Part shown: piece after piece, positions 100 to 12,237 of the stretch
Layout: every line of letters begins with the position of its first letter
How positions within the stretch are numbered: the stretch's first letter is position 1
Virus record (IMG/VR): IMGVR_UViG_3300042350_000872
Location: 1 to 22,219 of that record
Reading direction: 5' to 3' (one strand)
Origin: a virus
Length of the DNA: 22,219 bases
Made by a program: the position numbers and the translations under genes
Notes under the pieces: model-generated
The model's input: the letters and a program-made list of their open reading frames with translations, nothing else
Database searches by the model: none
Told to the model about the DNA's origin: nothing

Positions 100-868
100 A
101 CAAGAACGTCTAGCGGCGGCGCTGGCGTATCAACAGGCACAGCAACCGGCAATGATGAACCCGAACCTAGCGCGTCAAGGTGCGCGAGGGCGGGAAAACA
201 TGATGCCGCCTACGTCCATCATGGACGAGCGTTATCCGGCTTTTAAGCGCAATCAGGAAGATGCCGAAAAGCTGATGCTAGGGTTGGATATTGTCGGCTC
301 AACGATCCCATTGGCAGGCCCTGCAATGAAGGGCGCAAAGATACTAGGTCAAGCCGCAGCACCACAGATCGCGCAAGCACTTGAGAACTACACGTTCAAG
401 ACCGGCATGGCGTTGCCAGTAATTGATACAACAGGATTGCCCAACAAAGGCAGGGATTTGATTCGTAGCAAAGCAGATGAGTTATCCGACACGCTAAACA
501 AGCAAGGTTTTCAAGCAACTGCGGAATACTCAGGCAGCGCAGCAGGGCCATCCGCTTATGTCAATGTATTTGACCCGCAAACAGGTCGATTTATCACTTC
601 CCCTGCAAGGATTTCGGGGCATTCTAAAGGCCCGATTCAAAGCCAATTCGTGCATGAAATTTCGGATGAACCGCAATCAACGCAAAAATTTGTTGATCTT
701 GCAATGGAAATGCGGGCTAAAGGGCCGACAAAATTGATGCAAAAACAAGGCGAAGCGGAAAAAGCCGCAATGCAAATGCGTTATGAAAGCGCACAGAAGA
801 AAATAGCTAAAGGTAAGTCGTTAACGAACAGCGAACAAGAAGCCGTAAACATACTAGGACGAGAATAA
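92..868 (+). CDS. Unrecognised phage protein upstream of portal (258 aa)
   Basis: I do not recognise a named family. From the GTG at 92 the product is 258 aa. It has a polar, Gln/Met-rich N-terminus, then a hydrophobic Gly/Ala-rich stretch (about residues 64-90, IVGSTIPLAGPAMKG). A compact alpha/beta region follows, with S-A-Y-V-N-V at 154-159 and R-I-S-G-H at 173-177. It ends in a Lys/Glu-rich helical tail. The Y-V-x-V and R-I-S-x-H pattern recalls small domains attached to large polyvalent phage proteins; that is only a resemblance. The stop codon overlaps the portal ATG by one base (TAATG), so it is probably coupled to portal translation. It could be a head-associated protein or a small cargo or toxin-like domain carried by the virion. 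The function is unknown. Confidence 0.6.
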   Translation: MTEQERLAAALAYQQAQQPAMMNPNLARQGARGRENMMPPTSIMDERYPAFKRNQEDAEKLMLGLDIVGSTIPLAGPAMKGAKILGQAAAPQIAQALENYTFKTGMALPVIDTTGLPNKGRDLIRSKADELSDTLNKQGFQATAEYSGSAAGPSAYVNVFDPQTGRFITSPARISGHSKGPIQSQFVHEISDEPQSTQKFVDLAMEMRAKGPTKLMQKQGEAEKAAMQMRYESAQKKIAKGKSLTNSEQEAVNILGRE

Positions 869-3177
869 TGGATGAGCAAAGCACAGGCTTGCAAAAGCTG
901 CTGCATAACGTTGCAAGCTATGACGGTGACTTTAAGAAGTGGGAAGCCCGCGCTCAAAAAATCATCAAGCGTTATCGGGATGACAACCGCAGCCAGAACA
1001 CAAACGAAACTGCCAAGTTCAACATCTTGTGGAGCAACGTTCAAACGTTGATTCCTGCTGTTTACGCTCGTCTGCCCAAAGCTGATGTGTCGCGTCGTTT
1101 CGGTGATAACGACCAAGTGGGACGGGTTGCTTCGCTGCTAATAGAACGGGCGCTCGACTTCGAGATCGAGCACTATCCTGACTTTCGGCAAACGATGAAG
1201 CACGCAGTCGAAGATCGTTTCCTTGGTGGGCGTGGGACTGCCTGGGTGCGCTATGAGCCGCACGTCAACGCTGTCGATATGCCCGAAGATGGGCTAGAAG
1301 TGACCGAGGACATTGACGATCCTGAACCCGGTGTGCAGAACGACCCTACAGCCGGTCAAGAACCAATGGAGGAGATTGAGTACGAATGCGCTCCCATTGA
1401 CTATGTGCATTGGAAAGACTTTGGCCACTCAGTAGCTCGCACATGGGAAGAAGTAACGGCTGTTTGGCGGTGGGTTTACATGACCCGCGAGGCCCTGGTA
1501 GAACGTTTCGGCGAGGAAGTGGGCGAAAAGATACCTTACGACGCAGGCCCGGATACCCTTAAGCAGTACGGTCAAAGCACTAAAGAGCACACCCGCGCAA
1601 AGATTTGTGAGTATTGGTGCAAAGAATCGGGCAAGGTGTATTGGTTTAGCAAGTCAATGCCGAACATCATTGACGAGCGCGACGATCCCCTTGAGCTAGA
1701 AGGATTCTTTCCCTGCCCGCAGCCGTTATATGCAACCATGACCAGTGATACCCTCGTGCCGGTGGCCGACTTTGTGCTGTACCAGGATCAGGCTAACGAG
1801 CTTGATATCCTGTCAGATAGGATTGACGGGTTGGTCAAGGCTTTGCGCGTTAGAGGGGTCTATGACGCTTCTCAGCCTGCCTTGCAGCGACTGATGACCG
1901 AGGGCGAAAACAATGCTTTGCTGCCGGTCGATACTTGGATGGCGTTTGGCGAGAAAGGTGGCTTGAAGGGCGCTATCGACTTCCTGCCAATAGACATGAT
2001 TGCTCAGACCCTCATCCAATGCTATCAAGCCCGGACTGAGATCAAGAATCAGATATATGAAATCACGGGTCTGTCGGACATTATCCGAGGATCGTCGTTT
2101 GCCTCCGAGACGGCTACGGCACAGCAGATCAAGGGGCAATACGCCTCGATCCGGCTGCGCTCAATGCAAGAGGATGTTGCGCTTTTTGCGACCGGCTTGC
2201 TACGGCTAAAGGCGCAGGTAATCTGCACCAAGTTCCAACCGCAAACCATTGTTATGTTTGCAGCGGCAGATCAAATGCAACCCGAGGATCAGCAGTTGAT
2301 TCCTCAGGCTCTCGCGCTACTGAAAAACAAGCCGTTGCGTAATTTCCGCATCGAAGTTGCTGCTGATTCTCTCGTTCAGCTTGACGAACAGAAAATGAAA
2401 CAAGAGCGCGGTGAATTCCTGCAAGCGTTTGGCTCGTTCTTGCGCGAAGCATTGCCGTTAGGTCAGCAAGCGCCGGAAATGATCCCGATGATTGGTGAAT
2501 TGCTCAAGTTTGGCGTGGGTGCATTTAAGGGTGCAAGGCAGATTGAGGGCGCTATTGATCAGTCGATCAACAAGCTAGTCAATAAGCCCCCGGTTGAGCC
2601 GCAGCCTGACCCTGAGATGCTCAAAATGCAAGCAGAACAGCAGATGGCGCAAGGCAAGATGCAAGCAGACGGGCAACTTGAACAGGCCAAGATGCAAGCA
2701 CAGATGCAGATTGAGCAAGCAAAGTTGCAAGCGCAGATGCAAATGGATCAAGCAAAGTTGCAGCTTGAGCAGGCTAAGACGCAGCGCGAAGTCGAAGTCG
2801 AACAGATGCGGGCGCAAATGGACGCGCAGAAAATGGAGTTCGACCGTCAGAAAGCCGAAATGGAAGAGCAATACAACCGGTGGAAAATTGAGCTTGAGTC
2901 TGCAACAAAAGTTACCGTGGCAAGGATCGGTGCTAACCCTGGCGTGGATATCCCGCTAATTGAGGCTGCAACCGCTTCTGCTGAACGCATGACCGCTGAG
3001 CTAGGTAACGGCGTGCAGATGGCGCTGCAAAACGTCGAAAAAATGCAGCAGGATATGGCGGCTTTGCACGATCAGACTGCGGGCAAGATTGAAAGTTTGC
3101 TTTCTGTTATGTCTGCACCCAAGCGGATTATTCGTGGGCCGGACGGTAAAGCGGTGGGAGTTGAAATCGCAACATGA
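868..3177 (+). CDS. Portal protein (head-tail connector), 769 aa
   Basis: Forms the dodecameric ring at one capsid vertex through which DNA is packaged and ejected. Support is sequence pattern plus position before scaffold and capsid. The N-terminal part (about 50-130) has the block with NILWSNVQTLIPAVYARLP and GGRGTAWVRYEP (120-131) seen in podophage portals. IYEITGLSDIIRG (396-408) followed by a SETATAQQIKGQ block is another portal hallmark. Residues about 585-690 are a very long Gln/Met/Lys coiled coil built from 11- and 7-residue repeats, comparable in place to the C-terminal helical barrel of P22-type portals. The start overlaps the previous stop by one base, with AGGA 8 nt upstream; the end overlaps the next gene by 4 nt (ATGA). 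The product is long for a portal because of the coiled-coil extension. Assignment is confident; assignment to the P22 subtype is not. Confidence 0.9.
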   Translation: MDEQSTGLQKLLHNVASYDGDFKKWEARAQKIIKRYRDDNRSQNTNETAKFNILWSNVQTLIPAVYARLPKADVSRRFGDNDQVGRVASLLIERALDFEIEHYPDFRQTMKHAVEDRFLGGRGTAWVRYEPHVNAVDMPEDGLEVTEDIDDPEPGVQNDPTAGQEPMEEIEYECAPIDYVHWKDFGHSVARTWEEVTAVWRWVYMTREALVERFGEEVGEKIPYDAGPDTLKQYGQSTKEHTRAKICEYWCKESGKVYWFSKSMPNIIDERDDPLELEGFFPCPQPLYATMTSDTLVPVADFVLYQDQANELDILSDRIDGLVKALRVRGVYDASQPALQRLMTEGENNALLPVDTWMAFGEKGGLKGAIDFLPIDMIAQTLIQCYQARTEIKNQIYEITGLSDIIRGSSFASETATAQQIKGQYASIRLRSMQEDVALFATGLLRLKAQVICTKFQPQTIVMFAAADQMQPEDQQLIPQALALLKNKPLRNFRIEVAADSLVQLDEQKMKQERGEFLQAFGSFLREALPLGQQAPEMIPMIGELLKFGVGAFKGARQIEGAIDQSINKLVNKPPVEPQPDPEMLKMQAEQQMAQGKMQADGQLEQAKMQAQMQIEQAKLQAQMQMDQAKLQLEQAKTQREVEVEQMRAQMDAQKMEFDRQKAEMEEQYNRWKIELESATKVTVARIGANPGVDIPLIEAATASAERMTAELGNGVQMALQNVEKMQQDMAALHDQTAGKIESLLSVMSAPKRIIRGPDGKAVGVEIAT
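2677..2784 (+). repeat. In-frame hendecad/heptad repeats in the portal C-terminus
   Basis: Within the portal, residues 604-639 read as consecutive units LEQAKMQAQMQ, IEQAKLQAQMQ, MDQAKLQ and LEQAKTQ, that is 11, 11, 7 and 7 residues. The DNA repeats imperfectly (gagcaagcaaagttgcaagc-type units). The pattern fits a coiled coil extended by internal duplication. Confidence 0.75.
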
Positions 3178-4863: not shown

Positions 4864-5865
4864 ATGGCTTACGCCAATAGTTCTATCAGCGACATTATCG
4901 CTACCAACATCCAAAGCCGTAGCGGTGAGCTTGCTGATAACGTAACAAACAACAACGCACTCCTGCGTCGATTGAAGGAACGTGGAAACGTTAAGACCTT
5001 CTCAGGCGGTAACGTCATCCTCCAGGAAATCATGTACAACGATTCGGCAACCAACAACACCAACAGCTATAGTGGCTATGAAGTGCTCTCGGTCAGCCAA
5101 AACAGCCCAATTAGTGCCGCACAGTTCTCCATTACCCAATACGCCTCGGCAGTTTCGATCAGCGGCTTGGAGATGATTCAGAACAGCGGGAAAGAAGCGA
5201 TCATTGACCTGCTTGACGGTCGTATGAACGTGGCTGAAGCTCAACTGGCAAACCGTATCAGCGGCGATCTGTACCTTGACGGCACGGGTAACGCAGGTAA
5301 AAACCTGACCGGCTTGGGCGCTGCTGTGCCTGATAGCCCGTCTACGGGTACTTACGGCGGTATTGATCGTGCGACCTGGACGTTTTGGCGTTCGGTTGCT
5401 TTCTCCGGTGTAACGAATGGCGGTGCTGCTGTTACTGCAAGCAATATTCAGCAGTACATGGACTCGCTTGCTGTTCAGTTGATTCGTGGAACGGACAAGC
5501 CTGACCTGATCGTTGCTGACAACAACTTCTATCGTTTGTACCTGCAATCGCTTCAGTCGATTCAGCGTATCAGCGATAGCGGTTCGTCGATGGCAGGCGC
5601 AGGTTTTGCATCGCTGAAGTATTACGGTGCAGGCATGGGTTCGGACGTGGTGCTTGACGGTGGTATCGGTTCTTCCGCAACCGCTAACCACATGTTCTTC
5701 CTGAACACCAAGTACCTGATGTTCCGTCCGCACGCTGATCGGAACTTTGTTCCTATCGGTGGTGAACGCCAAGCTGTGAACCAGGACGCGATTGTGAAAT
5801 TAATCGGGTGGGCTGGAAATCTTACGTCAAGTGGCCCGCAGTTCTGCGGCGTGCTGATCGCATAA
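4864..5865 (+). CDS. Major capsid protein, probably HK97-fold (333 aa)
   Basis: Main coat subunit of the icosahedral head. The N-terminal arm (SDIIATNIQSRSGELADNV) is followed by an L-x-R-L-K-E-R-G and SGG stretch. The sequence then has mixed alpha/beta character with few Cys or charged runs, as expected for a coat protein. TYGGIDRATWTFWRS (163-177) is a motif I know from phage major capsid proteins of this type. C-terminal strands include KYLMFRPHADRNFVPIGGER. Length is normal for an HK97-fold coat. The gene sits between the scaffold and a small decoration-like gene, the classical order, and has its own strong ribosome binding site. The fold is inferred from family knowledge. Confidence 0.88.
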   Translation: MAYANSSISDIIATNIQSRSGELADNVTNNNALLRRLKERGNVKTFSGGNVILQEIMYNDSATNNTNSYSGYEVLSVSQNSPISAAQFSITQYASAVSISGLEMIQNSGKEAIIDLLDGRMNVAEAQLANRISGDLYLDGTGNAGKNLTGLGAAVPDSPSTGTYGGIDRATWTFWRSVAFSGVTNGGAAVTASNIQQYMDSLAVQLIRGTDKPDLIVADNNFYRLYLQSLQSIQRISDSGSSMAGAGFASLKYYGAGMGSDVVLDGGIGSSATANHMFFLNTKYLMFRPHADRNFVPIGGERQAVNQDAIVKLIGWAGNLTSSGPQFCGVLIA

Positions 5866-5877
5866 GGAGAAAATAAA

Positions 5878-6360
5878 ATGCCTACATTCAGCGTATCCGG
5901 TGTTATCGGCACTAACTTTACCGATACTTCATCGACTTCCCAATTCACTCCCGGCACGAAAGTGCTGTTGAGCGATGGCGGCGAAGCGATGTATGTGCAA
6001 GCCTCTGAAGCAATCAGCACTTACGGCGCGGTGACCATTACCGCCTCGCAGACTGCTGCTTTGCTGACTACCACCAACTCGGCAAACAGCAAGCGCGTCG
6101 GTTTCGCGCAAGTCTCGATTGCCTCGGGCTATTACGGGTGGGTGCAGTTGTCCGGTGTGATGCAAGTGAACCTTGCAGCTAACTGTGACGACAACGTGCC
6201 TCTGTATACGACCGCAACTGGTGGCGTGTTGGACGATGCAACGGTTTCCGGTTGTTTGGTTATCGGCTGCACTTCGACCCGCACGATCTCGAATGCCACG
6301 GCGGTTACTTGTATCGCTGCGGGCATCGCGGTTATCGGCACAGGTGCAATGCCTGGCTAA
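5878..6360 (+). CDS. Capsid decoration-like protein, Ser/Thr-rich (160 aa)
   Basis: A small, nearly charge-free, beta-strand-rich protein directly after the capsid gene, the usual place for head decoration or head-fibre proteins. By hand count about 41 of 160 residues are Ser or Thr. Motifs such as FTPGTKVLLSDGGEAMYVQA and GYYGWVQLSG suggest a small beta-barrel. Cysteines cluster in the second half (NCDD, GCLVIGC, TCIAAG). AAGGAG at 5864-5869 overlaps the capsid stop and gives a strong start 8 nt downstream. The stop overlaps the first gene of the sugar-modification cassette (TAATG). That position and the Ser/Thr content make it a candidate target of the cassette, though this is inference. 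No family name is certain. Confidence 0.7.
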   Translation: MPTFSVSGVIGTNFTDTSSTSQFTPGTKVLLSDGGEAMYVQASEAISTYGAVTITASQTAALLTTTNSANSKRVGFAQVSIASGYYGWVQLSGVMQVNLAANCDDNVPLYTTATGGVLDDATVSGCLVIGCTSTRTISNATAVTCIAAGIAVIGTGAMPG

Positions 6361-7151
6361 TGGAAAATCTCGCGCAACTAAAAGTTAATGTTAAAGCCGC
6401 AGGGACGCCTGATGGCATTGTGTCTAACATTCGCTCTGCGATTGCGCGGGGTTTACCGGAGTTAGTACCAAGTCTCATTGCTCACGATGGTCACATGGTC
6501 ATCGTGGGTAGTGGGCCTTCCATGCCGTCTCAGATTGAGAATATACGAGCAGAACGCGAGCGCGGTCGTCCTATTTTTGCAGTCAAGGCAGCGCATGATT
6601 TCCTTTGCAAGAACGGAATACAGCCCGATCTATGGTGCTGTGTTGACCCACGCGATAGAAGCGCACAGCTAAGCGAAGCAAACGCGCACACGGTCTATCT
6701 AGTGGCTTCTCGGTGCGATCCGTCAATGTTCGACGCTCTCAAAGCAAACAAGGTAATTTTGTGGCACTCGTTTGCCTACGAGGAATACAACGACGAACCT
6801 TTCAGCAGCATCTTCAACAAGAAGTTTCTTGTCGGCGGTGGCACTACGTCGGGGATGCGTGCGGTGTCGGTAAGCTATGTTTTAGGTTTCAGAACGTTTG
6901 AGATGTACGGCTTCGATTCTTGCCTAGCAGGTGATGGCAAGACCAAGCGATTCACAGGTGAGGGCGTAGATGAACCGATTGATGTGATCGTCGGTGGTAA
7001 ACGGTTCTTGTCGAATGGCGCAATGGCGCAGCAAGCAAACGAATTTCAAGAATACTTTAAGACGCTGCCTGACATTCACTTTAATGTGCATGGCGGCGGT
7101 CTAATCGCAGCAATTCTGGACGAGCGCAAACGCCTCGGAAAGCGAGTATGA
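6360..7151 (+). CDS. MptE/Maf-like DUF115 protein (263 aa)
   Basis: Resembles the DUF115 (MAF_flag10/MptE-like) Rossmann-type domain. That domain occurs in 6-hydroxymethylpterin diphosphokinases and in the flagellin glycosyltransferase Maf. Visible hallmarks are MVIVGSGPSM (46-55, nucleotide-binding loop), IFAVKAAHDFL (72-82), GIQPDLWCCVDP (86-97), a VGGGTTSGMRA segment and YGFDSCLAGDG near the C-terminus. In phage surroundings a sugar-transfer role next to a glycosyltransferase is more plausible than pterin synthesis, but the chemistry cannot be read from sequence. The start is ATG 6360, overlapping the preceding TAA; an in-frame ATG at 6252 would lie deep in the decoration gene and is rejected. 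There is no obvious ribosome binding site, so translation probably depends on re-initiation. The 3' end overlaps the glycosyltransferase by 4 nt. Confidence 0.8.
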   Translation: MENLAQLKVNVKAAGTPDGIVSNIRSAIARGLPELVPSLIAHDGHMVIVGSGPSMPSQIENIRAERERGRPIFAVKAAHDFLCKNGIQPDLWCCVDPRDRSAQLSEANAHTVYLVASRCDPSMFDALKANKVILWHSFAYEEYNDEPFSSIFNKKFLVGGGTTSGMRAVSVSYVLGFRTFEMYGFDSCLAGDGKTKRFTGEGVDEPIDVIVGGKRFLSNGAMAQQANEFQEYFKTLPDIHFNVHGGGLIAAILDERKRLGKRV

Positions 7152-7975
7152 GAGTTTCATTCATGCACAGCGGCGGTGCTGAGATGGCATCCTACCGATT
7201 GAGAGCGCAGCTTCCTTCAGCCTATTGCGGGCATGAATCAAGACTTAACGCGCTAGGGACGGATGTTGCGGTGTTTTGCAAGCCGCACCAAGACGATCTT
7301 GAGGTCTTAAGACAAGTTAATGCAAGGGGTGCTAAGACGGTAGTTGACCTATGTGACGACCATTTTGAGCACCCAAACTTAGGGAAACTTTATGAAGCAA
7401 TGGCTAGAGAAGCTCACGCAGTTGTTTGTCCGACTCAGGAAATGGCTCGACGAATCCGCAGCTACACTCAAAGGGAAGCTCAAGTAATACCCGACTCATG
7501 GGAGCAGCGGGGACAGCCCCATGCTGACGGTAACAAATATTTGTGGCTAGGGCATCAAAGCAATCTGAAAGAAATATTGCCGTATCGGAAGATGCTTAAA
7601 CAGTACGACATGACGTACTGCACCGGGCCGAATGATCAGATTGAGTGCGTGCCGTGGTCTACGAGCGCACAGACACAGTTGTTACATGAAAGTAACATTG
7701 TTTTGCTGCCAAGCAAGGGTGAGACGTACAAAAGCGCTAACCGGCTGATCAATGCAATCATGGCGGGTTGCTTTGTAATAGGCAGTAAGATTGATAAGAA
7801 CAAGGAATTCAGACACTTTTGTTACCTTGGGCCGCTAAAGGGCGGGCTTCAGTTCTCGCAAGCCTATAGGCACGAATTGAACGGCTTGGTGCGAGAAGGG
7901 CAGCGGTATATACAAATGAACTACTCACCGGAACAGATCGGAGCGCAATGGGACACAGTATTCGCCTCCATCTAG
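7148..7975 (+). CDS. GT-B-type glycosyltransferase (275 aa)
   Basis: Probable sugar transferase of the GT4/GT1-like GT-B fold. The N-terminal half opens with a short strand and MASYRLRAQLP (13-23). The KTVVDLCDDHF strand-loop (63-73) and AHAVVCPTQEMARRI follow; this arrangement is familiar in phage and bacterial GT4-like proteins. The C-terminal half has NKYLWLGH, HESNIVLLPSKG and SANRLINAIMAGCFVIGS, matching the donor-binding region where GT4 enzymes carry their acidic motif. At 275 aa it is shorter than typical 350-400 aa GT4 enzymes. It overlaps the upstream DUF115 gene by ATGA and the downstream methyltransferase by 28 nt, so the three form a unit. Donor and acceptor are unknown; a virion protein is a plausible acceptor. 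Confidence 0.75.
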   Translation: MRVSFMHSGGAEMASYRLRAQLPSAYCGHESRLNALGTDVAVFCKPHQDDLEVLRQVNARGAKTVVDLCDDHFEHPNLGKLYEAMAREAHAVVCPTQEMARRIRSYTQREAQVIPDSWEQRGQPHADGNKYLWLGHQSNLKEILPYRKMLKQYDMTYCTGPNDQIECVPWSTSAQTQLLHESNIVLLPSKGETYKSANRLINAIMAGCFVIGSKIDKNKEFRHFCYLGPLKGGLQFSQAYRHELNGLVREGQRYIQMNYSPEQIGAQWDTVFASI

Positions 7976-8433
7976 GGGCAGGTGATAGGTCTTGGCCCGG
8001 ATGGATCAACGTCGATTGTATTGGGGATCAAGACCTGATCTCAGATGTAACGAAACTTGATTTGCCGGATAATCATGCCGACGAGATTTCAGCGATCCAT
8101 TTGTTCGAGCACATCCCTACACCCAAAGCGAAACAAACGTTGCTTGAGTGGTTGCGGGTGCTGAAGCCAGGCGGTCAGTTGTCGCTTGAAATGCCGTGTC
8201 TTGACAATGTAATTGCGCTATGGAATCAGGGACACAGGAACGATGACTTGATCGGGCGTGCATTGTTCGGAATGCCCGAACCTGATACGATGCGCCATCA
8301 TTGGTGCTACTCGAAACAGCAAATAGGCACTATGTTAGTTGAAGCAAACTTTGAAAATGTACGTTTTGAAGAACCATTTTTCCACTTGCCGCAGCGTGAT
8401 CTTCGCGTTGTTGGCAGCAAATCTAAGGAGTAA
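7948..8433 (+). CDS. Class I SAM-dependent methyltransferase (161 aa)
   Basis: A small Methyltransf_11-like enzyme. Motif I is LHLGAGDRSWPGW (7-19), followed by the acidic residue at the end of strand 2 (NVD, 21-23). DVTKLDLPDNHADEI (33-47), HLFEHI (51-56) and the post-motif LRVLKPGGQLSLEMP are also visible. This LGAG...W-x-N-x-D arrangement is common in methyltransferases of polysaccharide and glycan loci and in phages. The gene starts 28 nt inside the glycosyltransferase gene, with GGAG 4 nt upstream. It is followed at once by a strong site for the next virion gene. Given its neighbours, methylation of a transferred sugar is the simplest hypothesis. DNA methylation is less likely because there is no NPPY/DPPY-type catalytic motif. 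Confidence 0.85.
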   Translation: MGHSIRLHLGAGDRSWPGWINVDCIGDQDLISDVTKLDLPDNHADEISAIHLFEHIPTPKAKQTLLEWLRVLKPGGQLSLEMPCLDNVIALWNQGHRNDDLIGRALFGMPEPDTMRHHWCYSKQQIGTMLVEANFENVRFEEPFFHLPQRDLRVVGSKSKE

Positions 8434-8435
8434 TC

Positions 8436-8795
8436 ATGGCTATCCCGTCACGCGTTTTGGGTAGTGGTAATTCTTCGCTGTCAACGGTTTCGATCTGCGG
8501 TGATGGTGCAACCGGTCTTGTTGCTGTAGGCAGCACGATTGCTGACGCTCTTCAACTGTCGGCGGTGTTCAACGCAATCACGACTTCATCTTCAGGTACG
8601 GGCGTAATTTTGCCTCCGACTGAAGTAGGTGCAATGGTTGGTATTCGTAATGATTCGGGACAAACCATTACGGTCTACCCGAAAGCAGGATCGACGATCA
8701 ATGCTGCTGCATCGACTTTGAGCGTTGCAAACGCAAAAACTGTCATTCTGTTTGCTACTAGCGCAACTACTTGGGCATCCGTTCTTACTGCATAA
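8436..8795 (+). CDS. Small beta-rich virion protein (119 aa)
   Basis: A low-charge, Ser/Thr-rich protein (about 33 of 119 residues by hand count). It contains GTGVILPPTEVGAMVGIRND, then SGQTITVYPKAGSTIN. This strand pattern (LPxxxxG-x-x-x-x-I-x-N, VYPxxGxxIN) is one I know from small phage structural modules, also found inside larger virion and tail proteins. AAGGAG at 8425-8430 overlaps the methyltransferase end and gives a strong independent start. It is probably a head or head-tail surface protein, perhaps a second decoration protein. It brackets the modification cassette on the opposite side from the 160-aa decoration-like protein. The exact role is unknown. Confidence 0.7.
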   Translation: MAIPSRVLGSGNSSLSTVSICGDGATGLVAVGSTIADALQLSAVFNAITTSSSGTGVILPPTEVGAMVGIRNDSGQTITVYPKAGSTINAAASTLSVANAKTVILFATSATTWASVLTA

Positions 8796-8812: not shown

Positions 8813-8818
8813 AAAACA

Positions 8819-9385
8819 ATGGCACTTGATTCAGACATTAACAACGCAGACTCGCAGCTCTATGTCGAGTTCTACACGTCAGACAAAGACCCCTACAAGG
8901 GCAAGCCGTTCATAAGAATCGTAGTGCCGGGTGATAAAACGACAGTAATTGATCAGCCGGTGCGGGATGACCACAAAGAGCGTTTCCCGCGCCAATGGTT
9001 GCACTTTCAGATGCAAAGCGGTGATGGCCCTGTAATTGGCACGCCGCTGAAAGATTGGCATCAGGATCGTCCCGAAGAACTAACGGACAATCAGCTTGCT
9101 GAGTTGCAGATTCTTAAGTTTCAGACAGTTGAGCAAGTAGCAACTGCAAGCGATAGTCAGCTTCAACGGATCGGCATGGGTAGTGCAGGATTGCGTGAGC
9201 GTGGGCGCAGTTACCTATTGAACAAGAATCAAAAGGTTAGCAGCGGGGAGTTGGAAGAAACCCGCGCACAACTTGAAGAACTGAAAGCACAGATGGCGAT
9301 GCTTTTAGAGCAACGCAAACCTGGCAGACCGAGGAAAGAGAATGTCAACGACAACGATGCTAGGGTTGGTGCAACAAGTAACTAA
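8819..9385 (+). CDS. Virion-region protein with HhH-like and AT-hook-like motifs (188 aa)
   Basis: A conserved-looking phage protein of unknown role. The N-terminal part (about 12-80) has YVEFYTSDKDPYKGKPFIRI, PGDKTTVIDQPVRDDHKERFPRQW and IGTPLKDW. Residues about 103-133 (TVEQVATASDSQLQRIGMG, then RERGRSYL) look like a short helix-hairpin-helix element. Residues 143-165 are a coiled coil. Residues 166-174 (KPGRPRKEN) contain a GRPRK core like a eukaryotic-type AT-hook. The last 44 nt overlap the adaptor gene in another frame. Its place between a small structural gene and the head-tail adaptor suggests a virion or head-completion component. The DNA-contact idea is inference from motif appearance only. 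Confidence 0.75.
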   Translation: MALDSDINNADSQLYVEFYTSDKDPYKGKPFIRIVVPGDKTTVIDQPVRDDHKERFPRQWLHFQMQSGDGPVIGTPLKDWHQDRPEELTDNQLAELQILKFQTVEQVATASDSQLQRIGMGSAGLRERGRSYLLNKNQKVSSGELEETRAQLEELKAQMAMLLEQRKPGRPRKENVNDNDARVGATSN

Positions 9386-10250
9386 TGAACTTGGTGTTGC
9401 AACCCCGTCAAGCGTAGCAGGTAACACAAATCAGGACGTGATCCAAATACTCGCGTTGATGAACGCGAACGGATACGAATTCCTGCGTCGTTTTGCTTGG
9501 CGGGAGTTGACTAAGCAATACTCGTTTTATACCGAATACCTGACAACGACGGGCACTTGGACGACAGCAGCCCGCACGATCACGATGGCCTCCACTACGG
9601 GACTTGATACGACTTATCAAGTTCAAGGCACAGGCATCAATCAAAACACCTACATCGTTTCTGTAGACTCTTCCACGCAAGTCACGGTCAATCAAGACTT
9701 TTCTGCAAACGGTACTGCTGCAACGGCGTACTTCCAAAAAGTCAAATACGCGCTTCCCTCTGATTATGAAAGTCTTGTTCCGCGTACCATGTGGGACAAA
9801 TCCAAACATTGGGAAATGCTAGGGCCTGAGAATGCTCAGCAATGGGAATGGCTGTTGTCAGGCTATATCTCGACTGGCCCGCGTATCCGGTGGCGCTTGC
9901 TTGGTGAATACTTCCAAATTTGGCCCGGTATGTCTACGGCTGAATATCTAGGTTTTGAGTACCGCAGCAAGGGGTGGGCAGAATCTTCAACCGGCACGGT
10001 TAAGAACTCGTTTACCGTGGACACAGACACTTGTATCTACCCTGATCGGTTGATGGTCAACGCGACCAAGCTAAAGTATTTCGAGGCTAAAGGCTTCGAC
10101 ACTACGGCAATGATGCGTAACTACCTGACCGAATTGGAAGCAGCGAAGGCGCTGGATATGTCGTCTGCCAATCTGTCGCTTGCACCGCGTCCGGGTACTG
10201 TGCTTATCGGTTACGACAACATCCCCGACAGCGGCTACGGTACTAACTGA
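9342..10250 (+). CDS. Head-tail adaptor protein (302 aa)
   Basis: Probable connector between portal and tail nozzle, analogous to T7 gp11/P22 gp4-type adaptors. The N-terminal helices (LVQQVTNELGV and IQILALMNANGYEFLRRFAW) and a later LPSDYESLVPRTMWD...HWEMLGPENAQQWEWL block (from 138) are characteristic of this podophage family, as is SKGWAESS. A Thr/Ser-rich beta domain (about 67-132, from LTTTGTWTTAARTITM to TAYFQ) is inserted between these halves. It ends with a helical C-terminus and a GYDNIPDSGYG tail. ATG 9342 is chosen because AGGA lies 6 nt upstream; ATG 9357 lacks a site. It overlaps the previous gene by 44 nt and the nozzle gene by one base (TGATG). Confidence 0.8.
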   Translation: MSTTTMLGLVQQVTNELGVATPSSVAGNTNQDVIQILALMNANGYEFLRRFAWRELTKQYSFYTEYLTTTGTWTTAARTITMASTTGLDTTYQVQGTGINQNTYIVSVDSSTQVTVNQDFSANGTAATAYFQKVKYALPSDYESLVPRTMWDKSKHWEMLGPENAQQWEWLLSGYISTGPRIRWRLLGEYFQIWPGMSTAEYLGFEYRSKGWAESSTGTVKNSFTVDTDTCIYPDRLMVNATKLKYFEAKGFDTTAMMRNYLTELEAAKALDMSSANLSLAPRPGTVLIGYDNIPDSGYGTN

Positions 10251-11815
10251 TGGCAACAAGCGCACGCCGCCGCATGATGGTTCAAGGGACTGCCGCGCAA
10301 GTGGCTTCCTTGCCTGCGCCTATCGGTGGATGGAACGCCCGCGATTCGCTTGCCAACATGGAGGCGACTGATGCTGTGCAGTTGACCAATATGTTCCCTG
10401 CGGTGTCGAGCGTCAATCTGCGCGGTGGTTATCAACGGTACGCAACGGGCATCACAGGGCAAGTCGAGAGTCTTTTTAATTACTCAGGCGGCGCATCAGA
10501 AAAACTATTCGCAGTAGCTAGTGACAAAATCTACGACGTAACAGCAGGCGGTGCTGTGGGCGCTCCAGTCGTCTCAGGATTGACGAACGCTCGGTGGGAG
10601 TATGTCAACGTATCAACGCCGGGTGGCTCGTTCATGTACGCCGCTAATGGCACAGATGCGCCTTTGCTCTACAACGGATCGACATGGACTTCAATCACAG
10701 CATCATCGTCGCCTGCAATTACAGGGGTTACGACGACAACGCTTGATAATGTGACTCTGTTTAAAAACAGGGTTTGGTTTATCCAAAAGAACACCCTTGT
10801 TGCATGGTATCTGCCGACTTCCTCAATAGCAGGTGTTGCTGAGCAAATCGACTTAAGCTCGGTTGCTCGGTACGGTGGCTATCTTGTGTCGATTGGTACA
10901 TGGACAATCGACGCAGGTTACGGTGCTGACGACAACCTTGTTTTTGTCACAAGCAACGGTGAAGTTATAGCTTATCGAGGTACTGATCCTGCTTCGGCAT
11001 CGACGTGGGCGCTCATTGGTGTGTGGAAGTTAGGCACACCCATTGGCAAGCGTTGTATGTTTAAGTATGCGGGCGACTTGCTGATCCTTACGCTAGACGG
11101 TCTGTACCCACTAGCGTCTGCCATTCAAAGCTCAAGGCTTGATCCGAGGGTTGCGTTATCCGACAAGATACAGGGCGCGTTTGCTTTAGCAACAAGAACA
11201 TATCAAGCTAACTTTGGTTGGCAAATTTTCTACAACTCAAAAAACAATGCGTTGTTTGTAAACATACCGATTGCTCAAGGCTCACAGCAGCAACAGTATG
11301 TGATGAACAACATCACTAAAGCGTGGTGCAACTTTACTGGTTGGGAATCTAACTGTTGGGAAATCTACTCAGATGACCCTTACTTCGGTGGCAATGGTTT
11401 TGTAGGTAAAGGATGGACAACAGACTTTCAAGACGATGCTGCAAACATTGAAGCAATTACATTGCAAGCGTTTAACTACTACGGCTCTCGCGGTGTTAAA
11501 AAGTATTTCACTCGCGCAAGACCTAGCATTTTCACTAACGGGCAACCGGCTATCTTTGTTGGTATGAACGTAGACTTTGATGTGTCAGACACGACGGCAG
11601 CTTTGTCGTTTAGCCCGCAATCTTTTGGTGTTTGGGATACAGCTTATTGGGATAGTGGTTTGTGGGGGTCAGGCGCAACGATTACGAACAATTGGCAAGG
11701 CATTACAGGAATAGGATATTGCGGTTCAATTCAGATGAAAAGCGCAAGCAAAGGCTTGCAGATCGAATGGGCATCGACGGACATTGTTTATCAAACCGGA
11801 TGGGCAGGTATATAA
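10250..11815 (+). CDS. Tail nozzle-type beta-propeller protein (521 aa)
   Basis: Probable tail tube/nozzle protein, comparable in role to T7 gp12 or P22 gp10. The N-terminus has LPAPIGGWNARDSLANM and DAVQLTNMFPAVSSVNLRGGY (about 20-60), a highly recognisable opening of podophage tail proteins. Repeated beta-blade-like units follow (LFAVASDKIYDV, MYAANGTDAPLLYNGSTW, RVWFIQKNTLVAWYL, NLVFVTSNGEVIAYRG, LLILTLDGLYPL), suggesting a beta-propeller. The C-terminal region carries a tryptophan cluster, W462-D-T-A-Y-W-D-S-G-L-W472, then a small all-beta end. Low charge and many aromatic residues fit a virion protein. The start overlaps the adaptor stop (TGATG). The GNAT gene begins 16 nt before its end. 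Confidence 0.82.
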   Translation: MATSARRRMMVQGTAAQVASLPAPIGGWNARDSLANMEATDAVQLTNMFPAVSSVNLRGGYQRYATGITGQVESLFNYSGGASEKLFAVASDKIYDVTAGGAVGAPVVSGLTNARWEYVNVSTPGGSFMYAANGTDAPLLYNGSTWTSITASSSPAITGVTTTTLDNVTLFKNRVWFIQKNTLVAWYLPTSSIAGVAEQIDLSSVARYGGYLVSIGTWTIDAGYGADDNLVFVTSNGEVIAYRGTDPASASTWALIGVWKLGTPIGKRCMFKYAGDLLILTLDGLYPLASAIQSSRLDPRVALSDKIQGAFALATRTYQANFGWQIFYNSKNNALFVNIPIAQGSQQQQYVMNNITKAWCNFTGWESNCWEIYSDDPYFGGNGFVGKGWTTDFQDDAANIEAITLQAFNYYGSRGVKKYFTRARPSIFTNGQPAIFVGMNVDFDVSDTTAALSFSPQSFGVWDTAYWDSGLWGSGATITNNWQGITGIGYCGSIQMKSASKGLQIEWASTDIVYQTGWAGI

Positions 11816-12237
11816 CGAAAGGCCCGGCTATCGGGCATTGGGTAGCTAAGCGTGTTGAAGGCGGCTACTTTGAAGGACGCAGCGAAGCAATAGGACTGTG
11901 CAAGGACGATGAGATAGTTGCAGGCGTGATATACGAGAATTGGAACAAGAAAAGCATTTGGTGTCATATAGCAATCGAAGGACGGATGACAGGCGCATAC
12001 CTAGCGGCAATTTTCGACTACCCGTTTAATGTGTGCCAAGTAGACAAGATCATAGTGCCGGTAGGAAGCGACAACGCAGCAAGCATCAAGTTAGTAACGA
12101 ATATGGGATTTGTAGAGGAAAGCAGAATAAAGGATGCAAGGGTGGATGGCGACATTGTTTTCTACACAATGAAGCATGACGCTTGCAGGTTTTTGACTGA
12201 TAAATACAGTAGAAAAATAGGAGTGCCTCATGGGTAA
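11800..12237 (+). CDS. GNAT-family acetyltransferase (145 aa)
   Basis: A small N-acetyltransferase-like protein. Family features are the opening GPAIGHWVAKRV, EAIGLCKDDEIVAGVIYENW (strands 2-4), IFDYPFNVCQVDKIIVPV, then SDNAASIKLVTNMGFVEESR, where the N-x-A-A-x-x-x-x-x-x-x-x-GF pattern is typical of GNAT motif A/B. The classical R/Q-x-x-G-x-G/A loop is degenerate. GNAT genes of this type occur in tail regions of phages; substrates are mostly unknown. ATG 11800 puts the family's N-terminus in place and overlaps the nozzle gene by 16 nt; longer in-frame starts at 11662 and 11767 would extend it with sequence unlike the family. No strong ribosome binding site is seen, so coupling is likely. It overlaps the next gene by 8 nt. 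Confidence 0.78.
   Translation: MGRYITKGPAIGHWVAKRVEGGYFEGRSEAIGLCKDDEIVAGVIYENWNKKSIWCHIAIEGRMTGAYLAAIFDYPFNVCQVDKIIVPVGSDNAASIKLVTNMGFVEESRIKDARVDGDIVFYTMKHDACRFLTDKYSRKIGVPHG
12219..12223 (+). promoter_or_regulatory. Ribosome binding site (AGGAG) for the first ejection-type gene
   Basis: AGGAG lies within the end of the acetyltransferase gene, 6 nt before ATG 12230. It gives the ejection-protein block its own strong translation start. Confidence 0.65.

Follow-up and report, generated by a model that had tools for sequence, protein, structure and literature searches.

A Maf-like DUF115 protein tied to the long form of a head decoration protein in Mx8-like phages, a likely virion glycosylation cassette

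A three-gene cassette in an Mx8-type phage, located within its head operon, likely carries out phage-encoded O-glycosylation and methylation of the phage's own head decoration protein. Sequence and structure analysis, with a comparison of about 330 environmental loci, showed the gene order, the fold, the conserved motifs, purifying selection, a strict association and covariation of the DUF115 protein of the cassette with a long form of the decoration protein, and fusions of glycosyltransferase (GT), DUF115 and methyltransferase (MT) domains. The enzymatic activity, the sugar donor, the acceptor residue, the order of the steps and the purpose of the modification are inferred.

Results

Organization of the cassette in the head operon

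The window, the whole stretch of DNA that was analysed, is a virus record of 22,219 nt (IMGVR_UViG_3300042350_000872, positions 1-22,219). Its phage is Mx8-like, with a major capsid protein (MCP) 52% identical to the major head protein of Myxococcus phage Mx8. The genes follow the order portal, gene at the scaffold position, MCP, decoration protein, cassette, 8436-8795, phrog_20268 and tail protein, with the following features:

868-3177, portal (phrog_12082)
4864-5865, + strand, Mx8-type MCP (phrog_9953, E 1.9e-107), anchor of the comparative survey
5878-6360, + strand, long-form head decoration/cement protein of 160 aa, proposed acceptor (phrog_29386, E 1.3e-6; weak PF09956)
6360-7151, + strand, DUF115/Maf-like protein of 263 aa, proposed O-glycosyltransferase and constant core of the module (PF01973, E 3.2e-22)
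7148-7975, + strand, GT-B-like GT of 275 aa, proposed sugar-extending enzyme, variable partner (weak Pfam GT4/GT1)
7948-8433, + strand, SAM-dependent MT of 161 aa, proposed sugar O-methyltransferase, variable partner (Methyltransf_11, E 3.8e-8)
8436-8795, + strand, small Ser/Thr-rich virion-operon protein of 119 aa, occurring with and without DUF115
8816-9385, + strand, conserved downstream head/tail gene marking the end of the variable slot (phrog_20268, E 1.7e-11)

An earlier note, made before any database search, had described DUF115, GT and MT genes overlapping by 4 nt and 28 nt within a morphogenesis operon, and this held with exact coordinates: the 4-nt overlap joins DUF115 to GT and the 28-nt overlap joins GT to MT. 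The TAA stop codon of the decoration gene (6358-6360) also shares 1 nt with the ATG start of the DUF115 gene (6360-6362), and a good ribosome-binding site precedes gene 8436-8795. The same gene set was seen again in many independent contigs, and the phrog_20268 gene was found in 23 out of 23 whole records. Promoter-like and terminator-like matches between 3500 and 10300 were not above chance, and a defence-system homology search returned no meaningful match.

Further downstream, the product of 10250-11815 carries the PHROG label amidase. The gene at the same position in ctMlz233 is called "phage stabilization protein", and the amidase label appears doubtful. In the tail operon, 11662-12237 weakly matches a GNAT-like acetyltransferase; Mx8-type phages have an acetyltransferase-annotated gene at this position, which in Mx8 is noted as a potential holin.

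The DUF115 protein has a Maf-like fold

The DUF115 protein scored 79.6 bits against PF01973 (MptE-like/Maf_flag10), above the curated cut-off of 34.6, and other variants of the family scored 64-73 bits. According to published work, the central Maf_flag10 domain of Maf enzymes is pfam01973 and resembles Cst-II, these enzymes attach nonulosonic acids to Ser/Thr in the exposed parts of flagellin, and they accept CMP-Neu5Ac and CMP-KDO (PMC11339370). Structural comparison with Maf and MptE, put forward beforehand as a check, ranked Maf first, MptE second and CMP-dependent sialyltransferases after them. When a profile of 29 phage DUF115 domains was searched against solved structures, the best match was Magnetospirillum Maf (5mu5, E 3e-11), followed by archaeal HPPK/MptE (E 2e-4), while the match to the sialyltransferase Cst-II was not significant (E 0.1). 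The AlphaFold model of the protein was good (pLDDT 86.9, pTM 0.86), and Foldseek placed 5mu5 first (E 4.4e-10, TMq 0.65), M. jannaschii HPPK/MptE (8sd5) second (E 1.5e-6) and SteA and mammalian sialyltransferases (2wnf) next, with E near 2e-3. The Maf-like fold is thus shown by the model and its Foldseek matches. The protein has the fold of the central Maf_flag10 domain of Maf flagellin glycosyltransferases and lacks their three-domain architecture: the 263-aa window protein is the DUF115 domain only, the profile match spans residues 270-430 of the 666 of Maf, and the NCBIfam PseD score is 21 against a cut-off of 670.

Residues invariant in the phage family include S54, G69, D96, S117, C119, F124, G159, G176, G184, D186, M222 and Q225, and H136 is nearly invariant. 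Where M. jannaschii MptE has the acidic stretch DLDGD, the phage family has LDxR instead (D96 invariant, R98 97%). This comparison involves one MptE only, and that activity requires DLDGD is an assumption. BFVD labels the phage homologues MptE-like pterin kinases, a name that we infer is probably wrong for this phage group. All three cassette genes are under purifying selection in window-type relatives, with median dN/dS values of 0.04 for DUF115, 0.07 for MT and 0.13 for GT; the value for MCP is 0.06, and the constraint on DUF115 is at least as strong.

No named-phage homologue of the window DUF115 protein was found at E 1e-3, and a PF01973 search of Mx8, BUCT555, ppBjS10J-1 and ctMlz233 gave no match. 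A GTDB pattern scan of host genomes yielded only three confirmed DUF115 matches, all of them the same phage head module inside MAGs.

DUF115 accompanies the long form of the decoration protein

The survey comprised about 255 viral-contig loci, obtained from scans with DUF115, MCP and the short decoration protein, together with four named phages. We defined the slot as the region bounded by MCP and the phrog_20268/tail gene and searched all reading frames with HMMs. Decoration proteins of groups c3 and c6 (160-183 aa) were counted as long and those of group c8 (~98 aa) as short. Among complete slots, DUF115 was present in 112 out of 112 with a long decoration protein and in 0 out of 83 with a short one. 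Some of the loci behind these counts had been retrieved with DUF115 or the short protein as the query; in the loci sampled by MCP alone, and so chosen by neither trait, DUF115 occurred with 48/48 long forms and 0/9 short forms, the nine including one odd form of 89 aa (L095). Three apparent long-type exceptions (L040, L078 and L080) proved to be gene-calling artefacts, resolved by the all-frame search. Many short-form relatives have capsid proteins about 90% identical yet are without DUF115.

In whole records, exactly one PF01973 copy was found in 23 of 24 long-type phages, the 24th record ending inside the decoration gene, and none was found in 20 phages without the long form. The only long forms without DUF115 were those of the distant phages Mx8 and ctMlz233, which show that the long decoration protein does not need DUF115. 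Relatives carrying the cassette far from structural genes and acting on LPS would, in the terms of the earlier note, have refuted a role in the virion. For DUF115 this was not so: where there was upstream room, the decoration gene preceded DUF115 in 84/84 DUF115-sampled loci and in 74/74 loci from a DUF115 alignment query, the contigs of the two sets being partly the same. Four loci retain both the decoration gene and DUF115 with a further gene (c7) separating them. Three loci have an HNH homing-endonuclease-like gene (HNH_3, E 3e-9; L064:5008-5463, L086:4625-5080 and L088:6715-7173) between MCP and the decoration gene, a recombination-prone junction.

The short form aligns to residues 1-94 of the group of the window decoration protein, by a weak profile match (hhalign of c6 against c8, E 1e-5; c3 against c8 much weaker). 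Residues ~95-160 form an extension found together with DUF115, and the trait that accompanies DUF115 may be this C-terminal extension of ~65 residues. Structure prediction gave a decoration protein model with a pLDDT of 72, whose top fold matches were all head decoration proteins (HFTV1, Sf11, the base of phi29 gp8.5, Pam3, TW1 and T1), but at E 6e-3 and above. The protein itself falls in phrog_29386, a virion structural protein family, and also weakly matches Phage_cement_2. With moderate confidence, we consider it possible that the predicted model resembles known head decoration proteins.

DUF115 and the decoration protein switch and covary together

On the best tree of 96 MCP representatives, DUF115 needs 9 changes and decoration type 10, and the well-supported branches force at least 5. 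Independent pairs on well-supported branches were concordant in 5/5 cases in most pairings (p 0.0625); five pairs are too few to reach 0.05. We then compared distances among 49 long-type representatives. The DUF115 and decoration protein distances were correlated with r 0.84 (0.80 given MCP). Adjacent genes can be swapped together, and therefore the gene on the other side of DUF115 was used as a control: the correlation with the 8436-8795 protein was 0.25 (0.10 given MCP). Correlations of DUF115 with phrog_20268 and with the scaffold were 0.32 and 0.31. A putative phage glycosyltransferase linked to virion proteins, as expected of virion glycosylation, is found here in the form of this association and covariation with the decoration protein.

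These data bear on several proposals of the earlier note. Its suggested search for joint loss of the cassette and its neighbours showed DUF115 to be tied to the long upstream decoration protein, with covarying sequences. Its argument from Ser/Thr-rich flanking proteins failed, and Ser/Thr-richness was rejected as a signature, since relatives that lack DUF115 have decoration proteins with just as much Ser/Thr (23.4% versus 20.6-23.4%). The downstream Ser/Thr-rich protein 8436-8795, also proposed as a target, is unsupported as the main partner, since it covaries poorly and is common without DUF115. It is not excluded as a second acceptor, because it is present in every DUF115-positive slot but in only 54/83 short-type slots. 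This 119-aa protein has longer relatives (275 aa; L022:4862-5689) with a BclA_C-like end (E 5e-4), possibly indicating a fibre or knob on the head.

GT and MT vary around a constant DUF115 core

The three-enzyme cassette of the earlier note had to be refined: DUF115 is constant, and GT and MT are exchangeable. DUF115 was found alone, beside separate GT and MT genes as in the window, fused to MT in a 447-aa protein (this MT type occurs in 70/112 slots), and as a single GT-DUF115-MT protein of 655 aa. In three whole records with a lone DUF115, an FkbM-type MT lies just upstream of the portal gene, in two of them with a GT too. An MT was present in 13/13 DUF115-positive long-type records examined and a GT was recognised in 7/13. 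The same MT families were found in 0/10 short-type records, and when 18 short-type records were searched more widely, neither FkbM nor a Methyltransf_11 match above the cut-off turned up.

The window GT has only weak GT-B matches (Glyco_transf_4, E 0.007; Glyco_trans_1_4, E 0.012) and its assignment is a weakness of the analysis; the gene is kept at this place in c6-type relatives. The window MT weakly matches the NCBIfam mycofactocin oligosaccharide methyltransferase MftM (E 4e-7).

Two side observations concern these partners. The N-terminal GT part of the 655-aa form (L050:9621-11588) resembles P1 PmgQ and P7 HdmD (tblastn E about 1e-11), which are annotated as morphogenic in P1-type phages. 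In L089:9553-10398 and L091:4697-5542, the DUF115-MT fusion lacks nearly all of the MT domain, in frame and with DUF115 intact, and it is possible that MT is dispensable or has been replaced there.

The pairing recurs in other phage lineages

In two further lineages, virion gene clusters hold the same MT family together with DUF115 or a protein resembling it. In a siphovirus and its relatives, the fused-type MT directly follows an unrelated Gp13-like MCP and precedes a protein that has a GGAPS motif and resembles DUF115 only weakly. The opposite order, MT-DUF115, was found in 40 loci, as a fusion of 473-475 aa in the typical cases read. One such locus (L361), checked with PHROGs, is part of a virion gene cluster and has a phrog_644 protein on either side. 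These flanking paralogues (L361:3489-3935 and L361:5363-5818) are of unknown function and are possible acceptors in that locus.

Discussion

Proposed mechanism

The proposal that the enzymes modify the phage's own virion proteins is supported by sequence evidence. The evidence is metagenomic only, without biochemical or mass data, and glycosylation itself remains inferred. We propose that during late expression the Maf-fold DUF115 enzyme would transfer a sugar, in the cytoplasm, to Ser/Thr residues of freshly synthesized long-form decoration protein, probably within its C-terminal extension. The donor would most likely be a CMP-activated 2-keto sugar of the host (KDO or a nonulosonic acid). 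No NeuB-type sugar synthase was found in the 22-kb window, which counts against the proposal. The GT-B-like enzyme may optionally add a further sugar, and the MT would cap the glycan by O-methylation. The modified decoration protein would then bind the head exterior, where the glycan may serve in shielding, stability or adsorption.

A bolder reading, towards which we do not quite lean, is that of a widespread modular system in at least three phage lineages. A single-domain enzyme of Maf/sialyltransferase fold would act on a dedicated C-terminal extension of the decoration protein, with interchangeable GTs and MTs writing different end-capped glycans, so that near-identical capsids would bear different head glycans or none.

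Alternative explanations

The most serious alternative, which we nevertheless consider unlikely, is that DUF115 is linked cargo, travelling with the adjacent decoration gene by recombination without acting on the virion. The genes are adjacent, and their joint switching on the MCP tree is what a block swap would produce, so block recombination remains possible as its cause. However, the gene on the opposite side does not covary (0.25 versus 0.84), DUF115 stays in the four loci where c7 separates it from the decoration gene, and no long-type slot in this clade has lost it. Its dN/dS of 0.04 also speaks against simple cargo, as does the recurrence, in unrelated phages, of virion gene clusters that hold DUF115 and a related MT. 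Less probable still is modification of the host surface, with the enzymes altering LPS or capsule to block superinfection in the manner of phage seroconversion genes. GT and MT families of this sort do occur in LPS synthesis, and one relative weakly resembles the KDO-transferase WaaZ (E 0.0076). Against this stand the location in a late head operon with a head decoration protein as partner, the single-polypeptide fusions in relatives, and the absence of any other operon gene covarying with DUF115 to a like degree.

Pterin chemistry, in which DUF115 would be a 6-hydroxymethylpterin diphosphokinase supplying a cofactor, has in its favour the Pfam name, the database name of the phage homologues and the second-ranked structural match to M. 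jannaschii HPPK/MptE. We judge it very improbable, since Maf is the better match in both sequence (3e-11 versus 2e-4) and structure, DLDGD reads LDxR in the phage family, and DUF115 is fused to GT and MT domains and linked to a decoration protein. It is equally hard to sustain that DUF115 merely binds the decoration protein or gives it a modification other than a sugar, with the MT methylating the protein itself. The presence of MT in every examined DUF115-positive record, with GT recognised only in about half of them, fits that view, but the DUF115 fold belongs with sugar transferases and GT partners recur in several forms. Glycosylation of the decoration protein remains the reading that we prefer.

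Significance and comparison with known systems

Proof that phage particles are glycosylated is so far known mainly from a few mycobacteriophages. The large and abundant freshwater/aquatic clade described here offers a defined enzyme, a candidate acceptor and a natural control group, with a short decoration protein and no enzyme, on nearly the same capsid, and hence a directly testable system for the usefulness of head glycans. If true, our reading would account for the phage proteins that currently carry a pterin kinase label.

The DUF115 domain is closest in sequence and fold to the Maf/PseD flagellin glycosyltransferases (5mu5, PF01973), whose targets, as would the proposed acceptor here, cover a particle surface in many exposed copies. 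In contrast to these, the phage protein consists of one domain only (255-265 aa), lacks the Maf N- and C-terminal domains, is encoded in a phage head operon and is often fused to MT or GT in relatives, and its acceptor would be a decoration protein. The GT29/GT42 sialyltransferases (2wnf, Cst-II) have a related fold, which suggests a CMP-sugar donor for DUF115, but the resemblance is distant (E about 2e-3 by Foldseek and 0.1 for the Cst-II profile). Archaeal MptE (8sd5) belongs to the same Pfam family and has a related fold, whereas its match is weaker, its DLDGD is not kept and the phage genomic context is unrelated to pterins. The head module of Myxococcus phage Mx8 shares a related MCP, decoration protein, portal and gene order, but nothing in Mx8 matches PF01973. 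In the literature searched, we found no Maf/DUF115 enzyme in a phage and no coupling to one form of a decoration protein. The nearest precedent in function is the virion glycosylation of mycobacteriophages (Che8 gp110, Corndog gp38 and Myrna; Freeman et al. 2023, as cited in PMC12363180 and PMC12619734), in which phage-encoded glycosyltransferases modify capsid or tail proteins.
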